In this document: positions 9,971 to 42,592 of the stretch, piece by piece | Layout of the letters: each line of letters begins with the position of its first letter | How positions within the stretch are numbered: the first letter of the stretch is position 1 | NCBI GenBank assembly: GCA_903882745.1 | Contig: CAIRYG010000011.1 | Span: 186,001-250,000, forward strand | Length of the DNA: 64,000 nt | Direction of reading: 5' to 3' | From: an uncultured Gemmatimonadota bacterium | Lineage (GTDB): Bacteria > Gemmatimonadota > Gemmatimonadetes > Gemmatimonadales > Gemmatimonadaceae | The notes under the pieces: generated by a model | The model's database searches: none | What the model was told of the DNA's origin: nothing | What the model saw: the letters and a program-made list of their open reading frames with translations, nothing else | Made by a program: the position numbers and the translations under genes

Positions 9971-9997
9971 TGCCGCGTGATCTGGCCAGACGCGGCA
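9971..9997. other. Second inverted repeat before gspG
   Basis: TGCCGCGT (9971-9978) pairs with ACGCGGCA (9990-9997) around 11 nt, about 30 bp upstream of the preferred gspG start. It is a possible mRNA leader hairpin or operator. Confidence 0.4.
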
Positions 9998-10024
9998 CTT
10001 CCCCTCTCCGTCCCGACTCGCCCC

Positions 10025-10513
10025 ATGATTCCTGCCTCGTTCCGTCGCGCCCCGCTTGGCCTCCGTTCCGGCGGTCGTGCTGGTGGCCGTTCTGGTGGCC
10101 GTTCTGGCTTTACGCTGATCGAAATCCTGGTGGTGATTGTCGTGATCGCCATTCTGGCGACCTTGGTGGCGCCGAACGTGTTCCAGAACGTTGGGGCAGC
10201 CAAGTCGGCCACGGCCAAGTCGCAGATTGAGATGCTGGGGGCGGCGCTCGACGCCTACCGCTTGGACAACGGCAGCTACCCCACCACGCAGCAGGGGCTG
10301 AACGCGCTGTGGGAGAAGCCGCAGATTGATCCGCCGGCGAACTGGCGCTCCCCGTACCTCCGAAAGGCCGTCCCTATGGATCCGTGGGGCCGTCCGTACC
10401 TGTATCTCGCGCCGGGCCAGGCGAATCCCGGGGGATTCGACTTGTTGTCGTACGGCGAAGATGGCAAGCCCGGTGGCGAAGGGGACAACGCCGACATCCT
10501 GAGTTGGAAGTAG
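10025..10513 (+). CDS. gspG: Type II secretion major pseudopilin GspG
   Basis: The ATG at 10025 gives a 162-residue prepseudopilin. A 28-residue basic leader rich in Gly/Arg/Ser precedes the prepilin peptidase site G-FTLIE, with Glu at mature position 5. The hydrophobic helix ILVVIVVIAILATLVAP follows, then the GspG C-terminus with the Ca-site style DPWGRPYLY and GEDGKPGGEGDNADI. It forms the pseudopilus that pushes folded substrates through the secretin. It is the first gene of the operon. No obvious Shine-Dalgarno is seen; an upstream start at 9977 would only lengthen the leader. Confidence 0.93.
   Translation: MIPASFRRAPLGLRSGGRAGGRSGGRSGFTLIEILVVIVVIAILATLVAPNVFQNVGAAKSATAKSQIEMLGAALDAYRLDNGSYPTTQQGLNALWEKPQIDPPANWRSPYLRKAVPMDPWGRPYLYLAPGQANPGGFDLLSYGEDGKPGGEGDNADILSWK
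10082..10105 (+). repeat. 12-bp tandem repeat in the gspG leader
   Basis: GGTGGCCGTTCT occurs twice in tandem and encodes the repeated GGRS of the prepilin leader, directly before the cleavage site. Confidence 0.85.
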
Positions 10514-10523
10514 TGAGCCGCTG

Positions 10524-11726
10524 ATGCCCACGTACGCCTACGATGCCGTCAGTAGCGCTGGCAAACGCCAGCGCGGGCTCGAGTCGGCGGCGAGCTCGGG
10601 GGCGCTCTCGCGCACCCTCGAGGAGCGTGGGCTGTTGGTGCTGTCGGTCACGGAGTCTTCGGAATCGACAACCAGTGGAGGTGGATTCAAGTTCGGACGA
10701 CGTCGCGAGGTGCTGGAGGTGACGCGGGCACTCGCCGCGCTCCTGCCAGTCGGAATGCCGCTGTCGCAGGCCTTGCAGGCCGCGATGGGGGTGACGTCGG
10801 GCGATGTGCGCGCGGCGCTGCACGAAGTCCGTAACAAGGTGCAGCGTGGTGACACGCTGAGCTCAGCCCTTGAAGAGCACCCCTCGTTTTTCTCGCCGAT
10901 TTATGTGGGGCTCGTCCGTGCGGGCGAGCGCAGCGGTGCGGTAGACGGCGCTTTTGCGCGACTCGCCGAGTCGCTGGAGCGGGAGGAAGCGCTGCGCGGG
11001 CGGGTGTTGTCGGCGGCGATTTATCCCATTCTGTTGGCGGTCGCGGGGACAGTCGCGATTGCAGTGCTGCTCTTCTTTGTGCTCCCGCAGTTCGTGGGAT
11101 TGCTCTCGGGAAGCGGCGCGAAGTTGCCAGCGAGCACGAGCTTCCTGCTGTCGTTGTCCGGGCTGTTGCATCGATTCTGGCCCGTGTTGGTGCTTGCACC
11201 GCTCGGGCTCGTGGGCGCTCTGACCTGGGCACAGACTACGGACGAGGGGCGCCGCGCCCTCTCCCGACTCATGCTCGCGCTTCCGCTGGTGGGAACACTC
11301 CGGCGCTACTCGCTGTCCGCGCGCTTTGCGCGGATGGCGGGGGTGTTGCTCGGTGGTGGCGCTCCGCTGCTCACCGCGCTCGACGACACCATTGACTCGA
11401 TTGCGGACCCGATCGCGAAGGATGATGCGATGCGGATTCGTACGCGGGTGCGCGATGGAAGTTCGTTGCGCGAGGCGGTCGCTGAGAGCGTGCTCTTCCC
11501 GGCCCTGTTGGCGCAGTTGATTGGCGTGGGTGAGGAGGCGGGACAGCTTCGCACGTTCCTCATGAAGGCGGCGGACATCTTTGAGGAACGCACGGAGCGT
11601 GCCACCCAGCGGATTGCCGCGCTCGCTGAACCGGCGATGATCATTGTGTTTGGCGCGATCGTGGCTTTTGTCGCGCTCTCCCTGCTGCAGGCGATCTACG
11701 GCATCAACGCGAACTCGTTCAAGTGA
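10524..11726 (+). CDS. gspF: Type II secretion inner-membrane platform protein GspF
   Basis: A 400-residue protein with two GspF domains and three membrane helices (around residues 168-190, 215-235 and 375-395). It has the typical opening MPTYAYDAVSSAGKRQRG and conserved segments such as VRAGERSGAVDGAFARLA and LLAQLIGVGEEAGQL. GspF is the polytopic core of the assembly platform that couples GspE to pseudopilus growth. It follows gspG after 10 bp; its stop overlaps the next gene by 4 bp. Confidence 0.93.
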   Translation: MPTYAYDAVSSAGKRQRGLESAASSGALSRTLEERGLLVLSVTESSESTTSGGGFKFGRRREVLEVTRALAALLPVGMPLSQALQAAMGVTSGDVRAALHEVRNKVQRGDTLSSALEEHPSFFSPIYVGLVRAGERSGAVDGAFARLAESLEREEALRGRVLSAAIYPILLAVAGTVAIAVLLFFVLPQFVGLLSGSGAKLPASTSFLLSLSGLLHRFWPVLVLAPLGLVGALTWAQTTDEGRRALSRLMLALPLVGTLRRYSLSARFARMAGVLLGGGAPLLTALDDTIDSIADPIAKDDAMRIRTRVRDGSSLREAVAESVLFPALLAQLIGVGEEAGQLRTFLMKAADIFEERTERATQRIAALAEPAMIIVFGAIVAFVALSLLQAIYGINANSFK

Positions 11727-12172
11727 GGACGCCAAGTCGCGTTGGGTTCACCCTGATCGAGATGGCGGTGGTGCTCGCGGTTATGGCGATCGCGTCGATG
11801 CTCGTGGCCCCGGCGCTCTCGCGGTTCGGCACGCAGGCACCGCCGCGCAGCGAGGACCGGCTCCTGACGCTGCTCGCTGACGCGCGAAAGTCCGCCATCG
11901 CGCATGGGGCTCAGGTGACATTGCGACTAGACCCCACCACCGGTGCGTATCGCGCGGACACCACCACGAGCCGCGGCACGGGCATCCTCGGCGAAGGGGT
12001 GCTTGATCTGGCAATGGAGGAGCGGCTGGTGACGCCGTTGCCGCGATTGACCTACATCTTCAAGTCGACCGGCGCGGCCTTTGCCGACACGGTACTCGTG
12101 CGCGGGACGACCTCGTCGGTGCTCGTTGCGGTAGACCCCTGGAGCGGAGTGGCCTATGCCTCGGCGCGCTAG
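11723..12172 (+). CDS. gspH: Minor pseudopilin, GspH-like
   Basis: A 149-residue protein with a short leader MRTPSRVG and prepilin motif G-FTLIEMAVVLAVMAIAS. The globular C-terminal part has the two-strand pattern of GspH/FimT minor pseudopilins. It would sit at or near the pseudopilus tip or shaft. It starts 4 bp inside gspF and overlaps the next pseudopilin by 17 bp, so the genes are tightly coupled. The H assignment comes from gene order; the sequence itself only proves a type IV pilin-like protein. Confidence 0.8.
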   Translation: MRTPSRVGFTLIEMAVVLAVMAIASMLVAPALSRFGTQAPPRSEDRLLTLLADARKSAIAHGAQVTLRLDPTTGAYRADTTTSRGTGILGEGVLDLAMEERLVTPLPRLTYIFKSTGAAFADTVLVRGTTSSVLVAVDPWSGVAYASAR

Positions 12173-12566
12173 GCAGGGGATCTCGCTGTTTGAGTCGGTT
12201 GCTGGCCTGACAATTGTCGGGATGGTTGCCGCGAGCGCTCTGGCGGCCACCGCACGCGAGATGCGCACGGCCGCGCGCGCACGCCGCGCGATTGAAGTTG
12301 AGGCACTGGCGACCTCGCGTCTTGATTGGATGGCGCTGACGACTGATGTCCAGTTACAATCGCTCCCCGACTCGATTGCGCGTGGGACGTTCCCCGAGCC
12401 GCTGAACGAGTACAAGTGGCGCACGGAGGTTGAGCCCGTTGCGCAGGAATCAGGGCTCTATGACGTGCAGGTCAGTGTGCTATGGAAGGATGGCGACAAG
12501 GATGTGTCGTATGTCATTCGATCCCGCGTGTACCGTCGACCGGTTCTGACGTCGAGGGGCCGATAA
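12156..12566 (+). CDS. gspI: Minor pseudopilin, GspI-like
   Basis: A 136-residue type IV pilin-like protein: leader MPRRARQG, cleavage site G-ISLFESV with Glu at mature position 5, then a hydrophobic helix (VAGLTIVGMVAASALAA). GspI nucleates the tip complex with GspJ and GspK. Its position between H- and J-like genes supports the I role. The stop TAA shares its last base with the ATG of the next gene (TAATG). The tail includes VQVSVLWKDGDKDVSYVIRS, a strand pattern seen in GspI. Confidence 0.8.
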   Translation: MPRRARQGISLFESVAGLTIVGMVAASALAATAREMRTAARARRAIEVEALATSRLDWMALTTDVQLQSLPDSIARGTFPEPLNEYKWRTEVEPVAQESGLYDVQVSVLWKDGDKDVSYVIRSRVYRRPVLTSRGR

Positions 12567-13264
12567 TGCGTTCAGCCCGCCGCAGAACTTTTCGCACGCG
12601 CCGCGGTGCGACGTTGCTCGAGTTGGTGATCGCGCTCGTGGTCACCGGCGCGATGGCGTCGATTGGGGCGGGCGCGTTCACGACGATCATTGATCACCGT
12701 CGGATTATTCGCGAGAGCGCTATCGACATGGAGCGCGCGGCAGCGCTGCGCGAGATGATTCGCGGGTGGCTGGTGTCGGGCACGATCCAGATTCAGCAGG
12801 GTGGGCTTCCCCGCAGTCGCGGTGCGGCCTCGGCCGTGGCGTCAGCCTCGGCGCTGGGCGCTGGGAGCACTGGCAGTGGGTTGACCGCGGTGAGTGCGGC
12901 CGCGTCGTCGGGCGAGGAAGTCACCTTCGTTACCACCGCCGCGACCCCCGCGATGAGTCCGAATGTGCGCATCCGCCTGTTCGTGGATGGCGATGCGAGC
13001 ACCCCGGAAACGGGACTCACCATGGAGTATCAGCCCAGCGATGCGGGGACGCAGATTCCGCTGCAGCGTCGGCAGCTCGAGCCGACGATCGGCGCGATGC
13101 TCGTGGAGTTCCTGGACCAGCGCACCACGCGATGGTACAAGGCCTCAGAGGCGACGACCATCACGCCGATTGCGGTGCGCATTACGCTGCAGCCTGCTGA
13201 CAAAGGAACAATCGCGGGAATCCTGCAGGTGCCAATCGTGCTCAGCATGCGGACGGGGCAATGA
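12566..13264 (+). CDS. gspJ: Minor pseudopilin, GspJ-like
   Basis: The ATG at 12566 overlaps the preceding stop and yields 232 residues: an Arg-rich leader (MRSARRRTFRTRRG), cleavage at G-ATLLELVIALVV, and a larger globular domain typical of GspJ. An Ala/Ser/Gly-rich loop (AASAVASASALGAGSTGSG) lies in the middle. An earlier in-frame start within gspI is rejected because it would place the pilin motif 43 residues in. It overlaps gspK by 4 bp. Confidence 0.8.
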   Translation: MRSARRRTFRTRRGATLLELVIALVVTGAMASIGAGAFTTIIDHRRIIRESAIDMERAAALREMIRGWLVSGTIQIQQGGLPRSRGAASAVASASALGAGSTGSGLTAVSAAASSGEEVTFVTTAATPAMSPNVRIRLFVDGDASTPETGLTMEYQPSDAGTQIPLQRRQLEPTIGAMLVEFLDQRTTRWYKASEATTITPIAVRITLQPADKGTIAGILQVPIVLSMRTGQ

Positions 13265-14271
13265 GCGGGCGCAGACACGTGGCAGGCACGCGTATGCGTC
13301 GCACGCCGCTCGGTCGACGTGGCTTCGCGATGATGGCGGCGATCTGGCTCACCGTCGCAATCGCGGTGGTCGCCCTGGAGTTTGCCCGCGACGCCAAGGA
13401 ACGTCGCACGCTCGGTATGGACGCCGCCGAACGCGGCGCGGGACGCGCGGCCGCCCTTGGAGTCCTTGCGCAGACGCAGGAGCGTCTGGAGCGCGCCATC
13501 CGGCAGGTGTCGCAGAGCGGGAACACCAACTCCGGCCTTCGCAGTAGCGACCCCTGGCTCGACGTGGACTCGCTTTTTTCGGGTTCTGTCAGCGCGGACA
13601 GCGCCGTGCAAGTTCTCGTACGCGCCCGCGACTTGGGCGCGCAGCTGAATGTGAATCTGCTCAGCGAGGATGAACTGAAGACGTTCTTCGGGTACGCGCT
13701 GAACGATTATTCGATTGCCGACCAGCTCGCGCAGTCGATCATGGATTGGCGCGATGCCGACGACATTGCGCGGCCGCGTGGCGGTGAACGTGATGCCTAC
13801 ATCAAGGCCAAACGACTGGCGCTCCCGGCGAACGCGAACTTCCGCGACCTGGCTGAGCTCCTCGACGTACAGGGGATCACGCCACAGATTTACGACAAGA
13901 TTGCTCCTTTCCTCACCGTGCGCGGCACTGGCACCGTGAATCTCAATACGGCACCGGCCGAGGTGCTCCGTCCACTCCCGGGGATGACCGATGCGATTCT
14001 CACGCGTATTCTGGCGCTCCGGTCCCAGGGGCGGCGCATCAGCAACGCGTCCGACGTGTTGCCCGGTGCAACAGGGCGCGGGATGGGGGGCCGAGGCGGC
14101 CCCCAACCTTCGCCCACCCAGGCGCGCCTTCTCGCACGAACCACGGTGAACACGACGAGTGTTGAACTGACGATCACCGCCCGCGCGGGCGTACAGGCTG
14201 AGCCAGTGCAGTTGCTCGCCATTGTACAACGCGTGGGGCAAAACGCGAACATTTCGTGGAGGCAGTGGTGA
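13261..14271 (+). CDS. gspK: Minor pseudopilin / tip protein GspK
   Basis: A 336-residue protein with leader MSGRRHVAGTRMRRTPLGRRG, cleavage before FAMMAAIWLTVAIAVVALEF and a large GspK domain containing paired helix-hairpin-helix-like segments (LNLNTAPAEVLRPLPGMTDA). GspK characteristically lacks Glu at mature position 5, as here. It caps the pseudopilus tip with GspI and GspJ. A Gly/Arg-rich loop (GRGMGGRGG) precedes the last strand. The TGA overlaps the GTG of the next gene. Confidence 0.88.
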   Translation: MSGRRHVAGTRMRRTPLGRRGFAMMAAIWLTVAIAVVALEFARDAKERRTLGMDAAERGAGRAAALGVLAQTQERLERAIRQVSQSGNTNSGLRSSDPWLDVDSLFSGSVSADSAVQVLVRARDLGAQLNVNLLSEDELKTFFGYALNDYSIADQLAQSIMDWRDADDIARPRGGERDAYIKAKRLALPANANFRDLAELLDVQGITPQIYDKIAPFLTVRGTGTVNLNTAPAEVLRPLPGMTDAILTRILALRSQGRRISNASDVLPGATGRGMGGRGGPQPSPTQARLLARTTVNTTSVELTITARAGVQAEPVQLLAIVQRVGQNANISWRQW

Positions 14272-15650
14272 GTCGTTCCGGCAATGGTATTGGCATCTGC
14301 ATCACCGCTGACCGCGTGACCGCGATCGTTGGCGGTGCGGGAGGCGCTTCGGGGCGTGGCTGGAGCGCCGAGCTCCACGGACTCGAGGGTGTCACCTGGC
14401 CCTCATTGGAACAGGCGTTGACGGCCCTCGCCTCGATTGCCGGCGGTGCCTCGAAGGCTTTGCATGTGGCGCTCGCGGCTCCGCTCATTGAACTCCGGCC
14501 AATCGTGTTGCCGCCCCTCGACGAGGAGGCCATGCAACTGTTGCTGTCGCGCCACGCGGGCCGCTATTTCCTTGGCGCGCGCGGGCCGCAGGTGGTGGGC
14601 GCGATTCGAGCGGCGACCGTTGGGAGCGAAACCGGCAGCCTCGAGAGCACCGTGCTCGCGGCCGCTGCGTCCACGCGCGTCGTGACCGCCATCGAGCATG
14701 CGGCCCACGCCGCCGGCTGGCAGGTGGCGGGCATTGTCCCGATGGAAGCCGCAGTCGCGGCCGCGGTCGGCGCGCGGGATGGGGGGGAGCTGTTGGTGCT
14801 TGCCTTACACGGCACAGGCACGATGGATGCCTTGCACGTGGCCGGTGGCGCGCTGCGCGGGGTCCGTCGGTTGCGCGCCGGCGGTGCCGACGGCGCCTTG
14901 ATCGCCTCCCTCTCGGCGGGCCATCGGATTCATCTCGCTGGCTCGAGCGATCCCGCGTTGGCAAAAGCGCTGGCCGACCTTGGACTCACCGCAGCCCGTG
15001 GGACAGACGCAGGGGACGACCTCGCGCGCATCGCGGCCCGCGGGGCGCCACTCGCTGCCGGACCGATCCTGGTGAGCGACGACGTACGCGCGGCGCGCAC
15101 CGCCCGCTCGGCGACGCTAGCCCGATGGCTTGGGGGGAGCGCGGCGGCCCTGCTGCTCGCGAGCGCAGGGCTCGAATGGTGGGGGATCTCGCGCGAGCTA
15201 TCTGCCGTTTCCGCCGAACGCGCAACGCTGCGCCCCAAACTTGGCACGACCCTCGTGGGACGCTCCACCGTTGAAACGGCGTATCGACGCCTCGGCGACC
15301 TTCAGGCCGCCGAGCGAAGCTCGCCGCAGTGGTCCCGCGTGATTGCCACCTTGGCCAGCGAACTCCCGGAAGGATCGTATATGACCACCTTCCGTGGCCG
15401 TGGCGATTCGCTGGTTGTCGACGGACTCGCGGAGCGGGCCGCCGGAGTTTTCGAGATGCTCGAGCGCAGCACCGTGTTCGCCGGCGCTCGCTCGGCAGCA
15501 CCCGTGCGCCGTGAAGTGCAAGAAGGGGGCGAGGCGTTGGAGCATTACACGATCGCGCTGCGACTGGCGGGGCTTGCCCCCGTGGCGCGTGCGACTGCCG
15601 CGCCTGGAAGCACTCCTGCCCCGCGTCCTGGCTCGGGAGGAACGCGATGA
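14268..15650 (+). CDS. gspL: GspL/PilM-like cytoplasmic-domain assembly protein
   Basis: About 460 residues: an N-terminal actin-like (ASKHA-type) cytoplasmic region (GIGICITADRVTAIVGG, and LLVLALHGTGTMDAL), one membrane helix (ARWLGGSAAALLLASAGLEWWGI, about residues 286-310) and a periplasmic domain. This is the GspL plan: it recruits GspE and binds GspM. GTG at 14268 overlaps the gspK stop; another GTG at 14256 is possible. It ends in a Pro/Gly-rich tail and overlaps gspM by 4 bp. Assigned from topology and position. Confidence 0.75.
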   Translation: MSRSGNGIGICITADRVTAIVGGAGGASGRGWSAELHGLEGVTWPSLEQALTALASIAGGASKALHVALAAPLIELRPIVLPPLDEEAMQLLLSRHAGRYFLGARGPQVVGAIRAATVGSETGSLESTVLAAAASTRVVTAIEHAAHAAGWQVAGIVPMEAAVAAAVGARDGGELLVLALHGTGTMDALHVAGGALRGVRRLRAGGADGALIASLSAGHRIHLAGSSDPALAKALADLGLTAARGTDAGDDLARIAARGAPLAAGPILVSDDVRAARTARSATLARWLGGSAAALLLASAGLEWWGISRELSAVSAERATLRPKLGTTLVGRSTVETAYRRLGDLQAAERSSPQWSRVIATLASELPEGSYMTTFRGRGDSLVVDGLAERAAGVFEMLERSTVFAGARSAAPVRREVQEGGEALEHYTIALRLAGLAPVARATAAPGSTPAPRPGSGGTR

Positions 15651-16300
15651 AGATCGGAAATCTCTCGCCCAGTGAGCAGCGCACCGTGACAATCGGTGCG
15701 AGCATTTTGCTCGCCTCGGCACTGTTCGTGTGGGGCCTCAAGCCATTCGCCGCGTCACTCGGCGATGCCAAGGAACGACTCCGCGTCGAACGCGAGACAC
15801 TCGCGCGCGAACGGGCGGCCGTTGCCCAGGCGCGCGCGAATCCCCTGCTCCAGCAACGCGCGGACTCGGTGATGGCGCTGACCGCGCCACGCCTCTTCAC
15901 CGGTCGCGACGACGTGATGGCGAGCGCGGACTTGGTCGCCTATCTGGGGGACATCTCGCGCAAAGCACGGGTGCTCCTTCAGGATGCAACGACGCGACCG
16001 AGCTCCACGACCGCGTCTGGCGTTCGGACGTTGCGCGTGGACATCCGCGCCGAGTCTGACTTACAGGGAATTTTGACGCTGTTACAGACGTTGGAGTGGG
16101 GCGATAAACTGATTCGCGTTGAGCGCATCGACTTGTCACGACTCCCCAACGCGACTGACGACGACAAGACCGAAACGCTCTCCCTGTCGGCGACCATCTC
16201 GGCATTCGCACTGCCTGCCGAGCCTCCGGTGTCCGCGGCGTCGAACGACCCCGCGCGGCCCAATGGGAGCGTGGTGACGCGCAAGGAGGGAGCCCCATGA
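15647..16300 (+). CDS. gspM: GspM-like assembly platform protein
   Basis: 217 residues with an N-terminal membrane helix (TVTIGASILLASALFVWGL), a coiled-coil-prone segment rich in Arg/Glu (AKERLRVERETLARERAAVAQARA) and a ferredoxin-like periplasmic domain, the arrangement of GspM/PilO. It would pair with the GspL-like protein. It overlaps both neighbours by 4 bp (ATGA). Sequence similarity to well-known GspM proteins cannot be judged strongly by eye; position supports the call. Confidence 0.75.
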   Translation: MKIGNLSPSEQRTVTIGASILLASALFVWGLKPFAASLGDAKERLRVERETLARERAAVAQARANPLLQQRADSVMALTAPRLFTGRDDVMASADLVAYLGDISRKARVLLQDATTRPSSTTASGVRTLRVDIRAESDLQGILTLLQTLEWGDKLIRVERIDLSRLPNATDDDKTETLSLSATISAFALPAEPPVSAASNDPARPNGSVVTRKEGAP

Positions 16301-16797
16301 GTCCGTCACAGCTGATGCGCGACGCCGCGGTGCGGCGTGCGGCCATGGGACTCGGTGTGGCGGCCGTGATCTTTGTGGCCCTGAGCGTGCGCGCGATTCG
16401 GATTGATGAGATTCCCGATGCGGCAGGAGCACCGATAGATGCAACGTTGCTCGCAAGCAGCGGCGCTCGCGGCGCTGGCAACGCCGCCGACATCGGCGCT
16501 GCGGTGGCACTGGACCCGTTCGCCGCGTCACGTTCGGCACCGGCCAAGCGCTACACATTGCCGTGGGAAGTGGGTGAGGCAAAGGTCACCGAGGCTGCAC
16601 CCAAGCCTCAGGTGCTAGGTACTGCGATTTCTTTGGACGGCAAGAACTTTGCCACCTGTCAGCTCGGCTCCGACACTCCGCGCATCGTGCACGTCGGCGA
16701 CCGGATGGGAGAGTATACCGTGAAGTCCATCGCCCGCGGACGCGTGGTGTTTACCACGTCGTCGGGGAGCACCCTCGACATCTCCGCGCTCAAGTGA
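16297..16797 (+). CDS. gspC: GspC-like inner-membrane coupling protein
   Basis: 166 residues: one N-terminal membrane helix (AAMGLGVAAVIFVALSVRA) and a C-terminal homology-region-like beta domain (VLGTAISLDGKNFATCQLG ... HVGDRMGEYTVKSIARGRV) as in GspC/PilP. In T2SS this domain contacts the secretin N0 domain and links inner and outer membranes. It lacks a PDZ or coiled-coil C-terminus. It overlaps gspM by 4 bp and precedes the secretin, consistent with a C (rather than B or N) role. Confidence 0.72.
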   Translation: MSPSQLMRDAAVRRAAMGLGVAAVIFVALSVRAIRIDEIPDAAGAPIDATLLASSGARGAGNAADIGAAVALDPFAASRSAPAKRYTLPWEVGEAKVTEAAPKPQVLGTAISLDGKNFATCQLGSDTPRIVHVGDRMGEYTVKSIARGRVVFTTSSGSTLDISALK

Positions 16798-16811
16798 GGA
16801 AGATCCAGCCC

Positions 16812-18689
16812 ATGTCACGACTCACCCGCCTGTTCCTGCTGACGACGATGGTGGCGTTCCCACTCGGCGCACAGAAAGCGAAGAAACAATTCCCACGAGA
16901 GACCGCGCCACCCGATCCAAGCCCTCCGATCGCGGTGGCGCCGGCGAGTTCGTCGGCGAAAAAGGACACGGTGACCGCTCGCAAAGCAGCGGACGGGTCC
17001 TATGTACTCGATTTCCAGGACCAGGAACTCCGCGTGGTGTTGTCGGCGTTGGCTGAGGCTGGCGGATTGAATGTGTCGTTGAGCAACCTGCCGAGCCGAA
17101 AGGTCACACTTCGGATGGGACAGACGTCGTCGAAGGAGGCGTTGCTCAACGTCATGCGTGGTGTGGCGGCCGCCAACGATCTCAAGGTCACGGAGTCGCC
17201 GTCGCTGATTCGGATTGAAGGGCCAGCCCCTGCGGTGACGCAGACACCCATGCAGGCCCTTCAGCAGCAACAGCAACAGGCGCAGCTCAAGTTGTACACC
17301 TATCGCCTCAAGCACGCGAGCGCCGTGCAGTTGGCGCCGGTGTTGACGAGCTTGCTCACCGGCGCTGGGACGTCGACCGCCGGTCGTGGCGGCGCGGCGA
17401 ACACGGGCTTGGGCGCGATCTTCGGAATCGGCGGGGGCGGGGCCGCAGGCGGCGGACTCGGAGCACTTGGCGGCGCCGCCGGAGGCGTGCAGGGTGGACG
17501 CGGCGGTGGTGGCGCTGGTGGCGGCCGTGGCGGTGGGGGCGGCGGTGTTGGTGGTGGCGCTGCCGGCGGTGCTGCGGGGGGTGCTGCGCAGCAAGCGCTG
17601 CAAGCCTTCCAAAACCAATTCCTCGGCGGTGCCGCGCTGTCGAGCTCGGCCGCTGATATTCGCATTGTGGCCGAAGAGGTCACCAACTCGCTGCTTGTGC
17701 GCGCGACGAGCGACGACTGGATGCTCCTGCAATCGCTGCTTGGGACGGTCGACCTGCGCCCCTTGCAGGTGCTGATTGAAGTCACCATTGCGCAGGTGCA
17801 GCGGACGAAGGACCTGAACATCGGGTTGTCGGGGATCCAAACGAACAAGGTGAGTTCGACCGTCACCGACACGATGGCGCTGATTCCGGGCGCCGCGAGT
17901 GCCCGGGACTTTGTGCTGCAGCTGACCGGCGGCAAGGGCGCGATCAACTACAACGTGGCGATGAACGCGCTCTCGAGCCGCGGCGATGTGAAGGTGCTCT
18001 CGCTGCCCGTCATTATTGCGCAGAACAACAAGGAAGCGATCCTGAATGTCGGGTCGCAGCGTCCGTTCGTGCAGGTATCGCAGAGTGTCGCGAGCGACCC
18101 AACGGGGCGCGTGCAGACGGTGCAGTACATCAACGTGGGGACCACGCTCACGATTACGCCGACGATCAATCCTGACGGCTACGTGAACCTGGCCGTCAAG
18201 CAGACCGACAATGCGGCCACCAACGAAATCCAGTTTTCGGCTCCGGTGATCAGCACCCGTGAAGCCACCACACAGGTCTTCCTGCGCGACGGACAGACCA
18301 CGGTGATCGGCGGACTCGCGGACAACACGACGTCGAACTCGACCTCCGGACTTCCCTACCTCTCGCGGCTTCCGCTCATTGGCTGGATTTTCGGGAATCA
18401 GCAGAAGAGCACGATCGCCAGCGAACTCTTTTTGTTCCTGACCCCACACGTGGTGTCGAGCGACGAAGACATCGATCGTCTGCGAGAGTCCGTGCAAACG
18501 GGGAGCGAGCTACTCACGGATGTGCCGATCACGGGCCGGATTACCCCGAGCGCGAAGGCCGATTCAATGCCTGGCGCGCCGAACGGTCCCAAGCCGCCGA
18601 CCCCAACCAAGCCTGTTCCGGTGATCAAGCCCGACACCGTGGCGCCGGGGAAGCGTCCCGGCACTCCGTCGACGCCGAGTACGCGCTAA
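16812..18689 (+). CDS. gspD: Type II secretion secretin GspD with Gly-rich insert
   Basis: 625 residues from the ATG at 16812, which starts a signal peptide (MSRLTRLFLLTTMVAFPLGAQ); an in-frame GTG at 16794 is less likely. Order: an STN/N0-like domain (YVLDFQDQELRVVLSALAEA), one secretin N domain (LYTYRLKHASAVQLAPVLTSLL) interrupted by about 75 residues of Gly/Ala/Arg-rich sequence and completed by IRIVAEEVTNSLLVRATSDDW, then the C-terminal secretin pore domain (VLIEVTIAQV ... FLRDGQTTVIGGL ... LFLFLTPHVV). It forms the outer-membrane channel. Fewer N domains are visible than in classical GspD. Confidence 0.92.
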   Translation: MSRLTRLFLLTTMVAFPLGAQKAKKQFPRETAPPDPSPPIAVAPASSSAKKDTVTARKAADGSYVLDFQDQELRVVLSALAEAGGLNVSLSNLPSRKVTLRMGQTSSKEALLNVMRGVAAANDLKVTESPSLIRIEGPAPAVTQTPMQALQQQQQQAQLKLYTYRLKHASAVQLAPVLTSLLTGAGTSTAGRGGAANTGLGAIFGIGGGGAAGGGLGALGGAAGGVQGGRGGGGAGGGRGGGGGGVGGGAAGGAAGGAAQQALQAFQNQFLGGAALSSSAADIRIVAEEVTNSLLVRATSDDWMLLQSLLGTVDLRPLQVLIEVTIAQVQRTKDLNIGLSGIQTNKVSSTVTDTMALIPGAASARDFVLQLTGGKGAINYNVAMNALSSRGDVKVLSLPVIIAQNNKEAILNVGSQRPFVQVSQSVASDPTGRVQTVQYINVGTTLTITPTINPDGYVNLAVKQTDNAATNEIQFSAPVISTREATTQVFLRDGQTTVIGGLADNTTSNSTSGLPYLSRLPLIGWIFGNQQKSTIASELFLFLTPHVVSSDEDIDRLRESVQTGSELLTDVPITGRITPSAKADSMPGAPNGPKPPTPTKPVPVIKPDTVAPGKRPGTPSTPSTR

Positions 18690-37560: not shown

Positions 37561-38139
37561 TTACGGCCGTCCAGCATCCTTCCGCTTCTCATATTTCTCG
37601 ACCTCTGCATTCAATTCCTTGAATGCTTCCGAGGCACGAATGCGCGTGACGATCGCTTCCTGCTGCTTCAGGCGCTCCAGCAGCGCTTTGCTGGCCTCAC
37701 CAACCGGCAGTTCCATCAGCACCCAGGCGCGGTACGTACCGGCGCCCATCGAGAACTGCTGTTCGCGCGTGTGGCTCCCGATCAGCACCTGACTGATCAC
37801 AGCCTTCGCGGTCTGCTCATACTCACCGAGCGCCGTTGCATCCGCGCCGAGCCCGGTTTCTTCGACGAAGCGGCGCTGCAGGCCGCCCAACTTGACCTCG
37901 AGCTGCGAGGCGAGCGCGGTGCGCCCCTCGAGCTCAGCCTTGTTCAGCGCCACCTGCAAGTCACGTGACTCGCCCGTGGCCGGTGCAATGATCCACCGGT
38001 CATCTGACTTCGGCGGCTTCTTGTACCATCCCGGCATATTCCGAAGCGTCTCCGGAGACGCCTGCTGGTCCATCTTTGGTCGCTGGCTGGCGCACGCCGA
38101 CAGGGCGAACAGACCAGCCGCAAGAATCAGTTTCTTCAT
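37561..38139 (-). CDS. LPP20-like lipoprotein
   Basis: 192 residues from the ATG at 38139: lipoprotein signal MKKLILAAGLFALSAC with Cys16 as the lipid site. The domain has the LPP20/LPP-like layout: PGWYKKPP near the start, a strand with ATGESRDLQVALNKAELEGRTALASQLEV and C-terminal helix with YRAWVLMELPVGEASKALLERLKQQ. The LPP20 family is found on outer membranes of diverse bacteria with no settled function. It is the last gene of the caspase-containing series, 35 bp after the FlgT-like gene. Confidence 0.75.
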   Translation of the reverse strand: MKKLILAAGLFALSACASQRPKMDQQASPETLRNMPGWYKKPPKSDDRWIIAPATGESRDLQVALNKAELEGRTALASQLEVKLGGLQRRFVEETGLGADATALGEYEQTAKAVISQVLIGSHTREQQFSMGAGTYRAWVLMELPVGEASKALLERLKQQEAIVTRIRASEAFKELNAEVEKYEKRKDAGRP

Positions 38140-38174
38140 AGTGATGCCTCCTCGATACCAAGAGTATCGGCAGG

Positions 38175-39134
38175 TTAAGGCGTTCTCCGTACTTCGATGG
38201 GAAGTTCGGCAATCGCCCGCTGGTCCAGCGGGATTCCAACCAACCACTGGTTAAAGGCGGCGAGGGTCAACACACCGGTATCCCGAGCCTCTCCGGTACC
38301 CGCGCCACCAGGGGCAGTGACAGGCGTTCGGGTGGCCACCGCCACCAGCCGTTCGCCACGCACACTCACGCCAGTGGGGAGCGTCACGCGAAGGTGAAGG
38401 CCAATCCTCCGTGTCTCCGCGTCCGGGATCTCGATCGTGCCGCTCGGCCCGGCGACGACACTCGGCGTCACCATATTGGGGGCGAGCACAAAGACGGAAT
38501 CACCCGTAACGCTGACGAGCGTGATATACGCTTCGGTCGTCGCGCGCACCGTGGCAATGATTTCGTCGTTCGCCGAAGGCGTTTCGCCCCGGACGATCAG
38601 GCGCGTGGTCCGCGCACCGAGGGTTACCCCGAAGCCTGCATCGCGCTGGCCGATCTCGGGCGTGACCTCAACGCGAAGCGTCAGCACGAGCACCGGAGGC
38701 GCACCGACGCTGTTCTTGGCCGACTGCCATTCTTCGCGCACGGTTTCCCACCGCGTGGCGCGGCCGGAGAGGTCGAGCCGGACCGCCTGCTCAAAGCGGT
38801 CGATGCGCGTGCCGGCGGAATCGCCTGAGGTCGCGGACTGCGTGGCCTGCACGCGGACACCCGTCACGCGACGAACCGCCTCGGCGAGGGCTTCCTGCAC
38901 GGCAATCGCTTTCACCTCGGCTGCCGTGCGACCGTCGGTGAGGGACACCCGACGCTCGACCTCCACCCAGGTGGACGCCTGAGCACGAACCACCCGCGGG
39001 GTGAGGACCATCAGCGCGAGCAGCAAAGACAGCAGCAACGCGAACGGCAACGCGAGCCGCAACACGCCCAACGGGTGGGAGCGGAGCCATCGTTGGCCGC
39101 TGGGCTGTTGGAATCGCGTGCGCGCCGTCATCAC
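38175..39134 (-). CDS. Exported FlgT/DUF4384-like protein
   Basis: 319 residues with an N-terminal basic segment and hydrophobic signal (LALPFALLLSLLLALMVL), likely cleaved near VVRA-QAS. Residues 55-105 (WVEVERRVSLTDGRTAAEVKAIAVQEALAEAVRRVTGVRV) look like the FlgT N-terminal/LPP20-type domain. Later, AYITLVSVTGDSVFVLAPNMVTPS matches the DUF4384 pattern (periplasmic beta domain). Two adjacent ATGs (39134, 39131) are possible starts; the gene overlaps the caspase stop by 4 bp, so they are coupled. No flagellar genes are nearby, so a flagellar role is unlikely. Confidence 0.7.
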   Translation of the reverse strand: MMTARTRFQQPSGQRWLRSHPLGVLRLALPFALLLSLLLALMVLTPRVVRAQASTWVEVERRVSLTDGRTAAEVKAIAVQEALAEAVRRVTGVRVQATQSATSGDSAGTRIDRFEQAVRLDLSGRATRWETVREEWQSAKNSVGAPPVLVLTLRVEVTPEIGQRDAGFGVTLGARTTRLIVRGETPSANDEIIATVRATTEAYITLVSVTGDSVFVLAPNMVTPSVVAGPSGTIEIPDAETRRIGLHLRVTLPTGVSVRGERLVAVATRTPVTAPGGAGTGEARDTGVLTLAAFNQWLVGIPLDQRAIAELPIEVRRTP

Positions 39135-41383
39135 TTGAGAATCACCACCGCGCGCGCAGGATCGCGCGAGACGAACTCCGGGGTCTGCTCCCGATCAATG
39201 CGGGCGGCGGTGCGTGGTACCTCGCGCGCGATGTACGCGGCAAGCTCCGCGGCACTGATGGTGCCGTCGTGATTCGCGTCGGCGGCACCGCGAAGCCCCG
39301 CGAGCAGTGCATAGGTGAACACCCCGTGCTGCCCCTCAGGCCACGAGTTGGCGAGTTGGTCGCCGCGCGCCGCTGAGAAGACGGACATGTTTTTTGCCCG
39401 CAACGCAGGGTTCTCGAGGCTGACCACCACGCCTCGCGCGCCCGCTACCATAGCGGCGCCGTCGCGCGCGCGCCCGCTGAAGCAGGCATCCACAAAGACG
39501 GTCACCGAGCGAGCGCCAAGCGCGGCGAGTCGATCGTAGAGTTCGTCGAGCGCGTATCCAGTCTGCGCGGGATACGACGGATCCCCGTCGTTCGGCAACA
39601 GATAGGCTTTGTGCGTCTTGGGATCGGTCACACCGTGACCGGCCCAGTAGACCACCACGTCGGTTTCGGCGGAGACGCGCCGCGCGAGCCAGCCGCCCTC
39701 GCCGAAGGTGCGCCGCAGTTCCGTACCAGAGACTTCGTCATCGGTGCGAAAAAGTAAGCGTGAGTCGTCGTCGCCCACGCCGAACACGTTGCGCACATAT
39801 TCGCGAAACACCGCCGCATCACGACGCGCGAGTGGCGTCTCCGGAGCGTGCTCGTACCGCTCAGCGCCGAACACCGCGGCCACGACATTGCCGCGTCGGG
39901 GTGCCCGAGGGATCCCGGTGTCGACCGGCGACACCAGCGACGGCGCTGCCGACGCAACGACCTTGCGACCGCGCACCACGAGCGAGGGAAGCTCATTCAC
40001 CGGACGGTCGAGCCCCAACGGGAGCGCGAGCGTCGTGTCGTAGCGCACGCGTTCTTCGTGAAGAGCAATCTCGACCGGGAATCCGGATGCCCGTGAGTTC
40101 GAGAAGGCGCTGAACCGCAGGTCGCGCGACTCGCCAACGCGCAGCGTACCGATGCGGCCCGTCGCTTTTGAGTCCGGCGTCAATGTCACCCCGGGCCCCG
40201 GGGCGATGACAAACTGCACGCCATGCCCTTCCCCTTCACCGTGATTCGAGACGCGCGCGGTGACTTCGACAATCTCGCGTGGCTCAATCCGTCCGTTCCC
40301 CGACTGGTCGTTGATCGCGATGCCGTCGAGCACAAACTTGGGGGCCCGCGCGCGACGTGTCGGGACATCGAGCGAAATCGAAGGTTCGAGATCGAAGCCG
40401 TTGCCCTCGTGTACGCCGACCAACAACTGCACCCGGGAGTCCTCCAAGCTTGCCTCCCCAACCACGCTCAGTGCGATCGTCGCGGAGTGACCGGGGGCGA
40501 TCGAATCGACACGGTCGGTGCTCACCACGCGGAGACCGTCCCATCCTTCGATGTTGAGCAACGCCGGCGTGACGGCGTAGGCTGTTCCACTCCCACGGTT
40601 CTTGACGGTGAGTGTGATGCGCGCCTGCTCGCCGCTGTCGAGATAGCCGTCACCCGAGGCATCGTCCCACACGATGGTCGCCGCGAGCGAGGCAGGCGCC
40701 ACGGGCCTCGGGATCGGCCGAGCGACTGCGACGGTGCCGGCCGTGCGCACCTTCAAACTGCGTCCCGAGGGATCGCTCCACGAGAGCACGCGATTGTCCG
40801 GCTCGCTGATCTGCACCACGGCCGTGCCGTACTGAAGCAGCACCATGCCGGCGCTCGCCTGCGGCGCATAGACCGTTGGCGTGCCTTGCAAGCGGACCAC
40901 ATCGTCCCGCGTGGAACCGCGGGCGAAGGTCGCGTCGGTGAGAACGGGTCCACTGGGGCGCAACTCGACGGCGAGCGCGCCGTCGTTGTTGGCCCAGGCA
41001 ATCACGCGGTCGTCACGGGTCGAGAGCCGTACCCAGCTGCCGTCGTAATGCCAGACGTCGTAACCGAGCGATACCAGGCGCTCCGTGAAGTCCGCGGGGC
41101 CTTGGGCACGAACGACCTCAGTGGACGACGAGCCCAACGTCCAGCGTGGCGTGTCGCGCGTAAAGCGCGGCCGCTTGTGCGGCTGCCCGACTCGGCGCGA
41201 TGCGGTGCTCCCCTGCCAGGCATACGCCGGGTGCGCGACCCCAAGTCCGAGCGCCACGGCGAGGCTCAGGAGTATGCGTCTCCACACGGCGCGGAATACG
41301 CGACGTGCACGGGTGCGAGCACACCTGCGAGCACACCTGCGAGCAGCAGTGCCAGAAACGGAGCGCAGAAATGGAGTCATCAC
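39131..41383 (-). CDS. Exported caspase-fold (C14) protein with BamE-like, CARDB-like and EF-hand-like segments
   Basis: 750 residues. An Arg/Cys-rich N-terminus precedes a signal helix (cleavage near AYA-WQG, residue 55). Two repeats at 84-131 and 155-203 share the pattern GS(S/T)xxxVVRxQG...DxRVxxW, resembling BamE-like domains. Two CARDB-like sandwiches follow, each introduced by an EF-hand-like loop (240-252 DDASGDGYLDSGE; 359-370 NDQSGNGRIEPRE). From about 500 there is a caspase domain: His583 in YWAGHG and Cys634 in VDACFSG form the dyad. A third EF-hand-like loop lies at 702-713 (DANHDGTISAAE). It should be a periplasmic or surface Cys protease or pseudo-protease. Upstream gene: glycosyltransferase, 60 bp away. 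Confidence 0.85.
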   Translation of the reverse strand: MMTPFLRSVSGTAARRCARRCARTRARRVFRAVWRRILLSLAVALGLGVAHPAYAWQGSTASRRVGQPHKRPRFTRDTPRWTLGSSSTEVVRAQGPADFTERLVSLGYDVWHYDGSWVRLSTRDDRVIAWANNDGALAVELRPSGPVLTDATFARGSTRDDVVRLQGTPTVYAPQASAGMVLLQYGTAVVQISEPDNRVLSWSDPSGRSLKVRTAGTVAVARPIPRPVAPASLAATIVWDDASGDGYLDSGEQARITLTVKNRGSGTAYAVTPALLNIEGWDGLRVVSTDRVDSIAPGHSATIALSVVGEASLEDSRVQLLVGVHEGNGFDLEPSISLDVPTRRARAPKFVLDGIAINDQSGNGRIEPREIVEVTARVSNHGEGEGHGVQFVIAPGPGVTLTPDSKATGRIGTLRVGESRDLRFSAFSNSRASGFPVEIALHEERVRYDTTLALPLGLDRPVNELPSLVVRGRKVVASAAPSLVSPVDTGIPRAPRRGNVVAAVFGAERYEHAPETPLARRDAAVFREYVRNVFGVGDDDSRLLFRTDDEVSGTELRRTFGEGGWLARRVSAETDVVVYWAGHGVTDPKTHKAYLLPNDGDPSYPAQTGYALDELYDRLAALGARSVTVFVDACFSGRARDGAAMVAGARGVVVSLENPALRAKNMSVFSAARGDQLANSWPEGQHGVFTYALLAGLRGAADANHDGTISAAELAAYIAREVPRTAARIDREQTPEFVSRDPARAVVILK
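41315..41350. repeat. 12-bp tandem repeat in the caspase signal region
   Basis: GCGAGCACACCT occurs twice, then the diverged GCGAGCAGCAGT. On the minus strand it encodes the repeated Arg-Cys-Ala pattern before the signal helix. Confidence 0.85.
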
Positions 41384-41443
41384 ACCGGAGTATCGGCGCG
41401 GTGCGGCAGAAACTGTGCTCCGATTTTTACCCGACGCGCGCTC

Positions 41444-42592
41444 CTACGATTTGCGGCTCGTGTAGCTCCGGGTCCGCCAGCTGGTGGGGCCGCGCACGGT
41501 CGACAGAACAATCCGCCACCACGCGGCGACATCGGCCAACGGGCTGAGCCAGAAGGTCAGACCGCGGCGTGCATACGAGCCGCGGGTCGCCACGAGCAGC
41601 ATGAGGCGCAGGGCAAGCAGGAAACCCACGAGCCACCCCAGGGCGCGTGCCGCCGGCGAGGGGGCCAGATGGACAAGACCGCTGGCGCCGACGACTACCA
41701 GCGGGAGTGGCAATGCCTGCGCGAAAAAGAGGAAGAGAATCTCCCCCCACTGCGTGAGCGCCGGCACCGAGTCGCGGAGCGCAATGGAGCGTCCCCATTC
41801 GCGCCACATCTGCGGAAGCCCGGAGTATGCGCGCACCGTGTACAGTCGCGAGCCGTCCAGAAAGCCCACGGGGACCCCCCGCGTGGCGAGACGCCGGACG
41901 AGCGAGACGTCTTCGGCGAATGAGGCTTTCACCGGCTCGTATCCACCGTGCTGAAGCAGCACCGCTTTCCGCACGAGGAAGCACTGCCCGTTGGCGATCA
42001 CCCGCTCGGGGCGAACGCGCGGATCGCCCGCTGCTCCGGAGCGATAAATCAGTGTGATCAAAATGGCGGGCTGCACGAACTGTTCGGCAGCGGTCTGCCC
42101 ATCGAAGCAGGGACTGAACGAGACGCAGTCGAAGCCCTCACGATCAGCGGCCGCAACAACGGCATCGGCGAGGCCGGCGCGTGGGGCCGTGTCGGCGTCG
42201 AGGCCGAGTACCCACTCGGTGGTGGCCTGCTCGAGTCCGTGCTGCAGCGCCCAGGCTTTCCCCACCCAGCCCGCGGGGAGCGGAGGATCCGTCAGGAGGC
42301 GAATACGCGGGTCGCGGGCGGCCGCGGCCGTCACGAGGTCGCGGGTGCCGTCAGACGAGTTGCTGTCGACGACGAGAATCTCCTTGACCACCGCCCCCTG
42401 TGCGGACACCCCGTGCAGGAGTGGCGTGATCCGCGCCGCTTCATTCAACGTGGCAATCACGATCGTGACGGCCCCTGGGGCCCCCGTTCCCGGCGCCGGC
42501 ACTTCAGGCGGACGACGCGTCCGTCCGCCCGACAGGCGGGCCAGCAGCACGGCAAGGGCGAGCCCTTCGGCGAGAATCAGCAGGATCAGCAT
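41444..42592 (-). CDS. Membrane glycosyltransferase family 2
   Basis: 382 residues: an N-terminal helix (MLILLILAEGLALAVLLARL), a GT2 catalytic domain with TIVIATLNEAARI, VDSNSSDGTRDL and the metal-binding LGLDADT, plus the acceptor segment ASFAEDVSLVRRLA (the ED motif) and two or three C-terminal helices. WVGKAWALQ and this layout resemble hopene-associated and carotenoid glycosyltransferases (HpnB/CruG-like); Gemmatimonas makes glycosylated carotenoids, so that is a reasonable guess. It lies between oligopeptidase B and the caspase gene on the same strand. Confidence 0.8.
   Translation of the reverse strand: MLILLILAEGLALAVLLARLSGGRTRRPPEVPAPGTGAPGAVTIVIATLNEAARITPLLHGVSAQGAVVKEILVVDSNSSDGTRDLVTAAAARDPRIRLLTDPPLPAGWVGKAWALQHGLEQATTEWVLGLDADTAPRAGLADAVVAAADREGFDCVSFSPCFDGQTAAEQFVQPAILITLIYRSGAAGDPRVRPERVIANGQCFLVRKAVLLQHGGYEPVKASFAEDVSLVRRLATRGVPVGFLDGSRLYTVRAYSGLPQMWREWGRSIALRDSVPALTQWGEILFLFFAQALPLPLVVVGASGLVHLAPSPAARALGWLVGFLLALRLMLLVATRGSYARRGLTFWLSPLADVAAWWRIVLSTVRGPTSWRTRSYTSRKS

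Follow-up and report, generated by a model that had tools for sequence, protein, structure and literature searches.

We analysed a 64,000-nucleotide stretch of DNA (the window; positions 186001-250000 of contig C11 in a 3.06 Mb Gemmatimonadaceae genome, labelled G000), whose minus strand carries an operon of three genes coding for a caspase with a predicted export signal, a DUF4384 protein and an LPP20-type lipoprotein. In the branch of the family to which this genome belongs, inheritance of the trio goes together with that of the swimming flagellum, and the trio does not look like a cell-killing system. It is present or absent as a whole, it is gained and lost jointly with the flagellar P-ring gene flgI, the trees of its proteins and of FlgI mirror each other, and in three genomes it stands beside flagellar or chemotaxis genes. 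We lean slightly towards the reading that the operon is an outer-membrane or periplasmic protease module that works for the flagellum in this branch and for different surface structures in other lineages. The coordinates of an initial annotation of the operon were confirmed:

39131..41383, minus strand: exported caspase-family (Peptidase_C14) protein, 750 amino acids (PF00656 and fold match; start at GTG 41383 or ATG 41380, a tandem GTG-ATG)
38175..39134, minus strand: exported DUF4384 protein ("FlgT-like"), 319 amino acids, overlapping the caspase stop by 4 bp
37561..38139, minus strand: LPP20-type lipoprotein, 192 amino acids (profile match to 5ok8; start placed by its ribosome-binding site)

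The trio as a unit

The initial annotation had described an exported caspase with an intact His-Cys dyad, encoded in a three-gene operon with a lipoprotein, and this description was borne out, the operon being a conserved module. Separate searches with each of the three proteins retrieved the same genomes (12 of 99 relatives, G000 included), so the three genes do co-occur. A lone, distant LPP20 protein in G015 is the only such case among the 99 relatives, and in G016 and G017 the trio is broken by contig ends. The family search missed the window's own caspase, and therefore the first-look family counts can miss members.

As a block the trio is found across Gemmatimonadaceae; in KSB1, Cloacimonadota, Marinimicrobia and Bacteroidales its genes are clustered more loosely. 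A scan of a genome collection found similar caspases in these four groups and in Zixibacteria; among the 80 loci scanned, several of them on short contigs, 49 open reading frames (ORFs) for a DUF4384 protein and 31 for an LPP20 protein lie alongside. Type I, the form found in the window's branch, is a separate clade (100/99) marked by added BamE-like repeats in the caspase, and in most of its loci the genes for the caspase and the DUF4384 protein share the 4-bp overlap. Gemmatimonad types II and III form another clade, with other gene orders, and stand beside large lipoproteins with Big_2 immunoglobulin-like (Ig) domains.

Co-occurrence and joint history with the flagellum

FlgI was found in all 12 trio-bearing genomes among the 99 relatives. 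The match is exact in the window's genus (18 genomes), where flgI is present in 7/7 trio-bearing genomes and in 0/11 of the others. Across the 179 genomes of the family, 20 of 21 type I carriers are FlgI-positive as against 60 of the remaining 158 (Fisher p=3e-7, a value that ignores shared ancestry); the trio of G035 is of a different kind and was left out of the type I counts. In G004, the trio lies between the chemotaxis genes cheA-W-MCP-Y-B-R-X and motB-motA-csrA-flgK with flgI, and in G168 it is likewise placed between chemotaxis genes and motB-motA-csrA-flgK with flgI, while in G029 it adjoins cheB-cheR-cheX, with flgI ~20 kb off. Two FlgI-negative genomes, G007 and G013, retain an intact pntB-DUF4097-oligopeptidase (POP) site with neither the trio nor recognisable remnants of it; the absence of the trio there is therefore not an assembly gap.

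When traced on an rpoB tree (24 genomes, two genera), the trio and FlgI undergo 4-5 joint changes, with 0 mismatches. Comparison of dependent with independent evolution gave a likelihood ratio of 29.8 (p=5e-6) on the single best tree, and such tests can overstate. The trees of FlgI and of the DUF4384 protein resemble each other more closely than species history explains: in samples of 7-11 genomes, the distances of the two proteins correlate at r 0.93-0.94, each correlates at ~0.4 with rpoB, and the partial correlation given rpoB is 0.91-0.93 (p=0.0002). It is 0.81 after removal of G004 and G168, and 0.58 (p=0.0002) when only genomes with physically unlinked trio and flgI are used. For LPP20 and FlgI it is weaker (0.35, p=0.025), and the control neighbour pntB showed no mirrored history with FlgI (-0.29, p=0.84). 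The correlation cannot be put down to physical linkage alone, because trio and flgI are separated by ~390 kb in the window's genome and because the mirrored history persists in the unlinked genomes. G004 and G168, which belong to different genera, are sisters in the FlgI, DUF4384 and caspase trees (100/100), thus suggesting joint transfer.

The caspase protein

The following features were assigned to the caspase, all on the minus strand:

41219..41383, minus strand: predicted export signal at the N-terminus: a long basic lead plus the hydrophobic stretch ILLSLAVALGLGVA (hydrophobicity scan; conserved in homologues)
40964..41149, minus strand: BamE-like repeat 1, residues 79-140, in type I homologues (secondary structure of the model)
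40769..40942, minus strand: BamE-like repeat 2, residues 148-205 (secondary structure of the model)
40406..40651, minus strand: CARDB domain, residues 245-326 (PF07705, E=1e-6, above cut-off)
40094..40375, minus strand: second CARDB/DUF11-like Ig domain, residues ~337-430 (weak DUF11 match; beta strands in the model)
39137..39895, minus strand: caspase domain, residues 497-749 (Pfam and fold search)
39635..39637, minus strand: codon CAC of catalytic His583 (His in 109/110 homologues)
39482..39484, minus strand: codon TGC of catalytic Cys634, within DACFSG (Cys in 111/111 homologues)
39245..39280, minus strand: EF-hand-like loop 3, DANHDGTISAAE, residues 702-713 (below the Pfam EF-hand cut-off; partly conserved)

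The assignment of the caspase domain is certain. The Pfam profile PF00656 (Peptidase_C14) matches the window copy with E=5e-11 (43 bits, cut-off 21.4) and also matches 9/9 homologues, and the predicted structure (predicted local distance difference test score, pLDDT, mostly 80-93 in this domain) matches Arabidopsis metacaspase-4 (6w8s; Z 21.1 over 209 residues, 2.9 A) and MALT1 (Z ~20) in a fold search. It was the fold search that settled the identity after weak sequence searches of the PDB, in which the single caspase sequence found no caspase and a profile found only a yeast metacaspase (E=0.97). The dyad is almost invariant in homologues, as the counts above show, and Asp632, which precedes Cys634 by two positions, is invariant (111/111). 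To judge from these residues, the caspase is apparently active as a protease. The genome has a second caspase-domain gene with a better score (G000:C6:33342-34259, locus L001; E=3e-26).

The accessory domains of the initial annotation stood in part. Its two BamE-like repeats appear in the model as consecutive helix-plus-four-strand units (residues 86-130 and 158-202), although the Pfam BamE profile matches only 1/9 caspase homologues (1e-4); matches to the caspase outside Gemmatimonadota begin at ~residue 200. One of its CARDB-like domains lies above the cut-off, whereas the second is only weakly DUF11-like. Its three EF-hand-like loops all fall below Pfam cut-offs (best match 21.2 bits, curated cut-off 25.9), and the first is poorly conserved even inside the family, but loop 3 is moderately conserved across homologues (D702 54/67, D706 56/105, E713 88/108), the sole loop of which this is true. 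These residues hint weakly at a calcium dependence of the caspase. Gemmatimonas phototrophica is without flagella at low calcium (PMC9862903), which we treat as a coincidence until the presence of the trio in that organism is known.

The DUF4384 protein and the lipoprotein

Two domains were delimited in the DUF4384 protein:

38658..38972, minus strand: N-terminal domain, strand-helix-hairpin-strand-strand, as in SHS2-like FlgP/FlgT domains (predicted structure)
38322..38570, minus strand: DUF4384 domain (Pfam)

As to the DUF4384 half of the earlier name "FlgT/DUF4384-like", PF14326 matches 11/11 homologues (best 4e-9), with the window copy at E=3e-4 and 21.1 bits, below the cut-off of 27; as to the FlgT half, the Pfam FlgT families gave no match at E<=1 in any of the 11 homologues. 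In the model (overall pLDDT 77), the N-terminal domain comprises a strand (residues 54-63), a helix (70-90), a hairpin insert predicted poorly and with low confidence (100-113) and two further strands (123-136 and 147-158). This order resembles that of an SHS2-like domain with a hairpin insert, and the label "FlgT" has only this likeness of predicted topology behind it. FlgP, Lpp20 and FlgT have a common SHS2-like fold, with the hairpin insert in FlgP and partly in FlgT (PMC12222027). Sequence homology of the N-terminal domain with LPP20 was looked for by profile comparison and none was found (probability 0.1%).

The longest ORF of the lipoprotein gene spans 37561-38247 on the minus strand, and its start is almost surely not 38247 but ATG 38139, which follows a GAGGAGG ribosome-binding site. 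Its lipobox is LSAC, and the lipid-bearing Cys16 (codon at 38092-38094) is shared with homologues as an invariant column. As the initial annotation had it, the protein is LPP20-like: PF02169 matches 10/11 homologues (best 1e-7; window copy 17.4 bits, cut-off 25.9), and the family profile finds Helicobacter pylori Lpp20 (5ok8) with E=4e-6. In a simple hydrophobicity scan, all three trio proteins have predicted hydrophobic export signals.

Proposed role and alternatives

We infer the export route, complex formation, placement at the motor, proteolysis, substrate and part played by calcium, and put them together as follows. The LPP20 lipoprotein would be placed in the outer membrane, where it and the SHS2-topology DUF4384 protein might form or join a scaffold of the FlgP/FlgT sort around the site of flagellar passage through the envelope. 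The caspase would dock at this scaffold via its BamE-like and CARDB domains, and its His-Cys dyad would cut a client after a basic residue, as Asp632 ahead of Cys634 does suggest by analogy with metacaspases. For type I, the client would belong to the flagellum or to its passage through the envelope, and the likeliest jobs would be processing of envelope or motor proteins during outer-membrane passage, or release or turnover of the flagellum. A narrower version, in which an active periplasmic caspase dedicated to the flagellum is held by LPP20 and DUF4384 at an outer-membrane ring and cuts a motor or envelope protein for maturation or release, seems to us possible but rather doubtful.

Several results weigh against a flagellar role. 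No structure locates the trio proteins in a motor, and a fold search with the whole DUF4384 protein did not have FlgT (3w1e) among the matches listed; matches to the Ig-like C-terminal domain took up that list, so that the absence proves nothing. G195 (74% complete) has the trio without FlgI, the sole type I exception, and G196 (95% complete) has FlgI without the trio. There are only four independent pairs (sign test p=0.125), and the mirrored history comes partly from genomes whose trio is physically linked to flagellar genes. Finally, 22 of the 34 flagellated genomes among the 99 relatives are without the trio, 37 of 41 trio hosts outside this clade are without FlgI, and gemmatimonad types II and III are FlgI-positive in 0/7 cases. 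The many flagellated relatives without the trio show that flagella in general do not require it and rule it out as a universal flagellar component, and the FlgI-negative hosts of other lineages rule out that it is flagellum-specific everywhere. The flagellar link is thus a property of one branch, type I, of a broader envelope module.

The same distribution could be explained by a general protease module for surface proteins in the envelope of the Fibrobacteres-Chlorobi-Bacteroidetes (FCB) group, which tracks the flagellum through a shared motile lifestyle or regulon, without any action of the caspase on the motor. In its favour are the Big_2 lipoproteins beside types II and III and the occurrence of trios or of pairs, mostly in FlgI-negative genomes, in KSB1, Cloacimonadota, Marinimicrobia, Zixibacteria and Bacteroidales. 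However, trees mirrored with FlgI, together with placement in the flagellar cluster of three genomes, point to a tie more specific than lifestyle, and a 4.1 Mb relative that lacks both trio and flgI speaks against simple genome reduction; we regard this explanation as unlikely, though the most serious of the alternatives. It is improbable that the caspase fold has a structural part, as scaffolding of the motor or of an outer-membrane disk, with incidental catalysis. Incorporation of a protease fold into a flagellar disk has a precedent in PflC of Campylobacter, derived from HtrA (PMC12222027), but the catalytic residues of PflC are lost, whereas the His and Cys of the trio caspase are practically invariant.

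Most improbable in our assessment is the proposal of the initial annotation, an envelope protease that depends on calcium and takes part in self/non-self killing or programmed lysis. The intact metacaspase-type dyad with its basic-pocket Asp, a match to the PADLOC caspase model (3e-8) and the partly conserved acidic loop would fit it. But the caspase is exported and has no effector, immunity or defence partner, its neighbours being metabolic or flagellar; the trio is inherited with the flagellum; the EF-hand matches lie under the cut-off; and the score against the EACC1-associated caspase (NCBIfam NF047832) is 70.4 bits where 140 are called for. PADLOC gives the partners no match and the caspase only a generic one, and neighbours of this kind are absent, so that a defence or killing system was rejected. 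Killing or lysis is thus unsupported, and the genome scan ties the type I trio to the flagellum instead, a link at which the partner names in the initial annotation hinted without drawing it.

Surroundings of the locus and other forms of the trio

Upstream of the trio, on the same strand, lie a glycosyltransferase gene and a prolyl oligopeptidase gene; downstream is the end of pntB on the opposite strand. At 41400-41750 of the window, terminator-like sites outnumber those of shuffles (13 compared with 5.6), several of them overlapping near the upstream end of the caspase gene, and these may separate the glycosyltransferase gene from the trio. Elsewhere in the window (9977-18689), a run of genes with N-termini of the FTLIEILV type resembles a type II secretion/pseudopilin cluster. 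The closest named record, with a 95% identical caspase, is a Gemmatimonadetes metagenome-assembled genome from Lake Pavin.

The order LPP20-caspase-DUF4384 occurs in G182, G186, G192 and G170 (L094-L097). In the first three, whose genomes are without FlgI, the trio adjoins a Big_2 Ig-domain lipoprotein; could this be another client for the module? A further form in G180, G194 and G190 (L098-L100) has a second LPP20-like gene and, in 2/3, two DUF4384 genes, with large regulators nearby, one of which was scanned and has BTAD and AAA/STAND-type ATPase domains (L099:9984-13118). In G174 and G176 (L103:5145-9323 and L105:2073-5525), a large ORF adjoins the DUF4384 gene, in G174 between it and the caspase gene, and the start of this ORF resembles the regulators of type III loci. 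In KSB1 loci L120 and L121, the trio is followed by a beta-barrel protein and a protein-kinase/FGE-sulfatase fusion. L129, in a record titled Nanoarchaeota, has a Cloacimonadota-like trio and is probably a mis-binned contig.

Significance and comparison with known systems

Bacterial caspase homologues are mostly discussed under programmed cell death and stress. If the flagellar reading is true, a caspase with an intact dyad whose loss, transfer and retention follow those of the flagellum would show that the family can also have a mechanical task unrelated to death, one that is testable in a motile organism, and an active protease might have been added around the flagellar outer-membrane ring, where the dead protease PflC serves as a scaffold. 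The proteins driving flagellar ejection have been described as undetermined (PMC6424402). That the trio occurs across FCB phyla suggests an envelope module of general use, coupled to one surface machine or another depending on the lineage. We found no paper joining a caspase with the flagellar motor, only incidental co-mentions, in a literature coverage that mostly leaves out subscription journals.

Bacterial metacaspases and orthocaspases (Peptidase C14) are similar to the trio caspase in the caspase fold, the His-Cys dyad and the Asp two residues before the Cys. The trio caspase differs from them in its predicted export, its BamE-like and CARDB domains, the location of DUF4384 on a separate gene, the LPP20 lipoprotein and the flagellar link. 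In cyanobacterial orthocaspases, DUF4384 is already known as an accessory domain (23 listed in PMC8283722), and a 2012 survey reported a single Gemmatimonadetes metacaspase, with the dyad missing (PMC3501461).

The FlgO/FlgP/FlgT H-ring and basal disk of Vibrio and Campylobacter share with the trio an LPP20-family lipoprotein, a partner of (here predicted) SHS2 topology and inheritance with the flagellum, whereas the trio's partner carries DUF4384 and has no Pfam FlgT match, its operon includes a protease, and a FlgP-type ring is not known for it. H. pylori Lpp20 (5ok8) is a profile-level homologue of the trio lipoprotein, but the gemmatimonad copy sits in an operon. We know of no caspase partner of H. 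pylori Lpp20. The closest parallel for a protease fold tied to a flagellar accessory disk is PflC in the medial disk of Campylobacter jejuni (PMC12222027); PflC, however, is an HtrA-type serine protease relic without catalytic residues, whereas the trio brings an unrelated caspase fold with its dyad intact.

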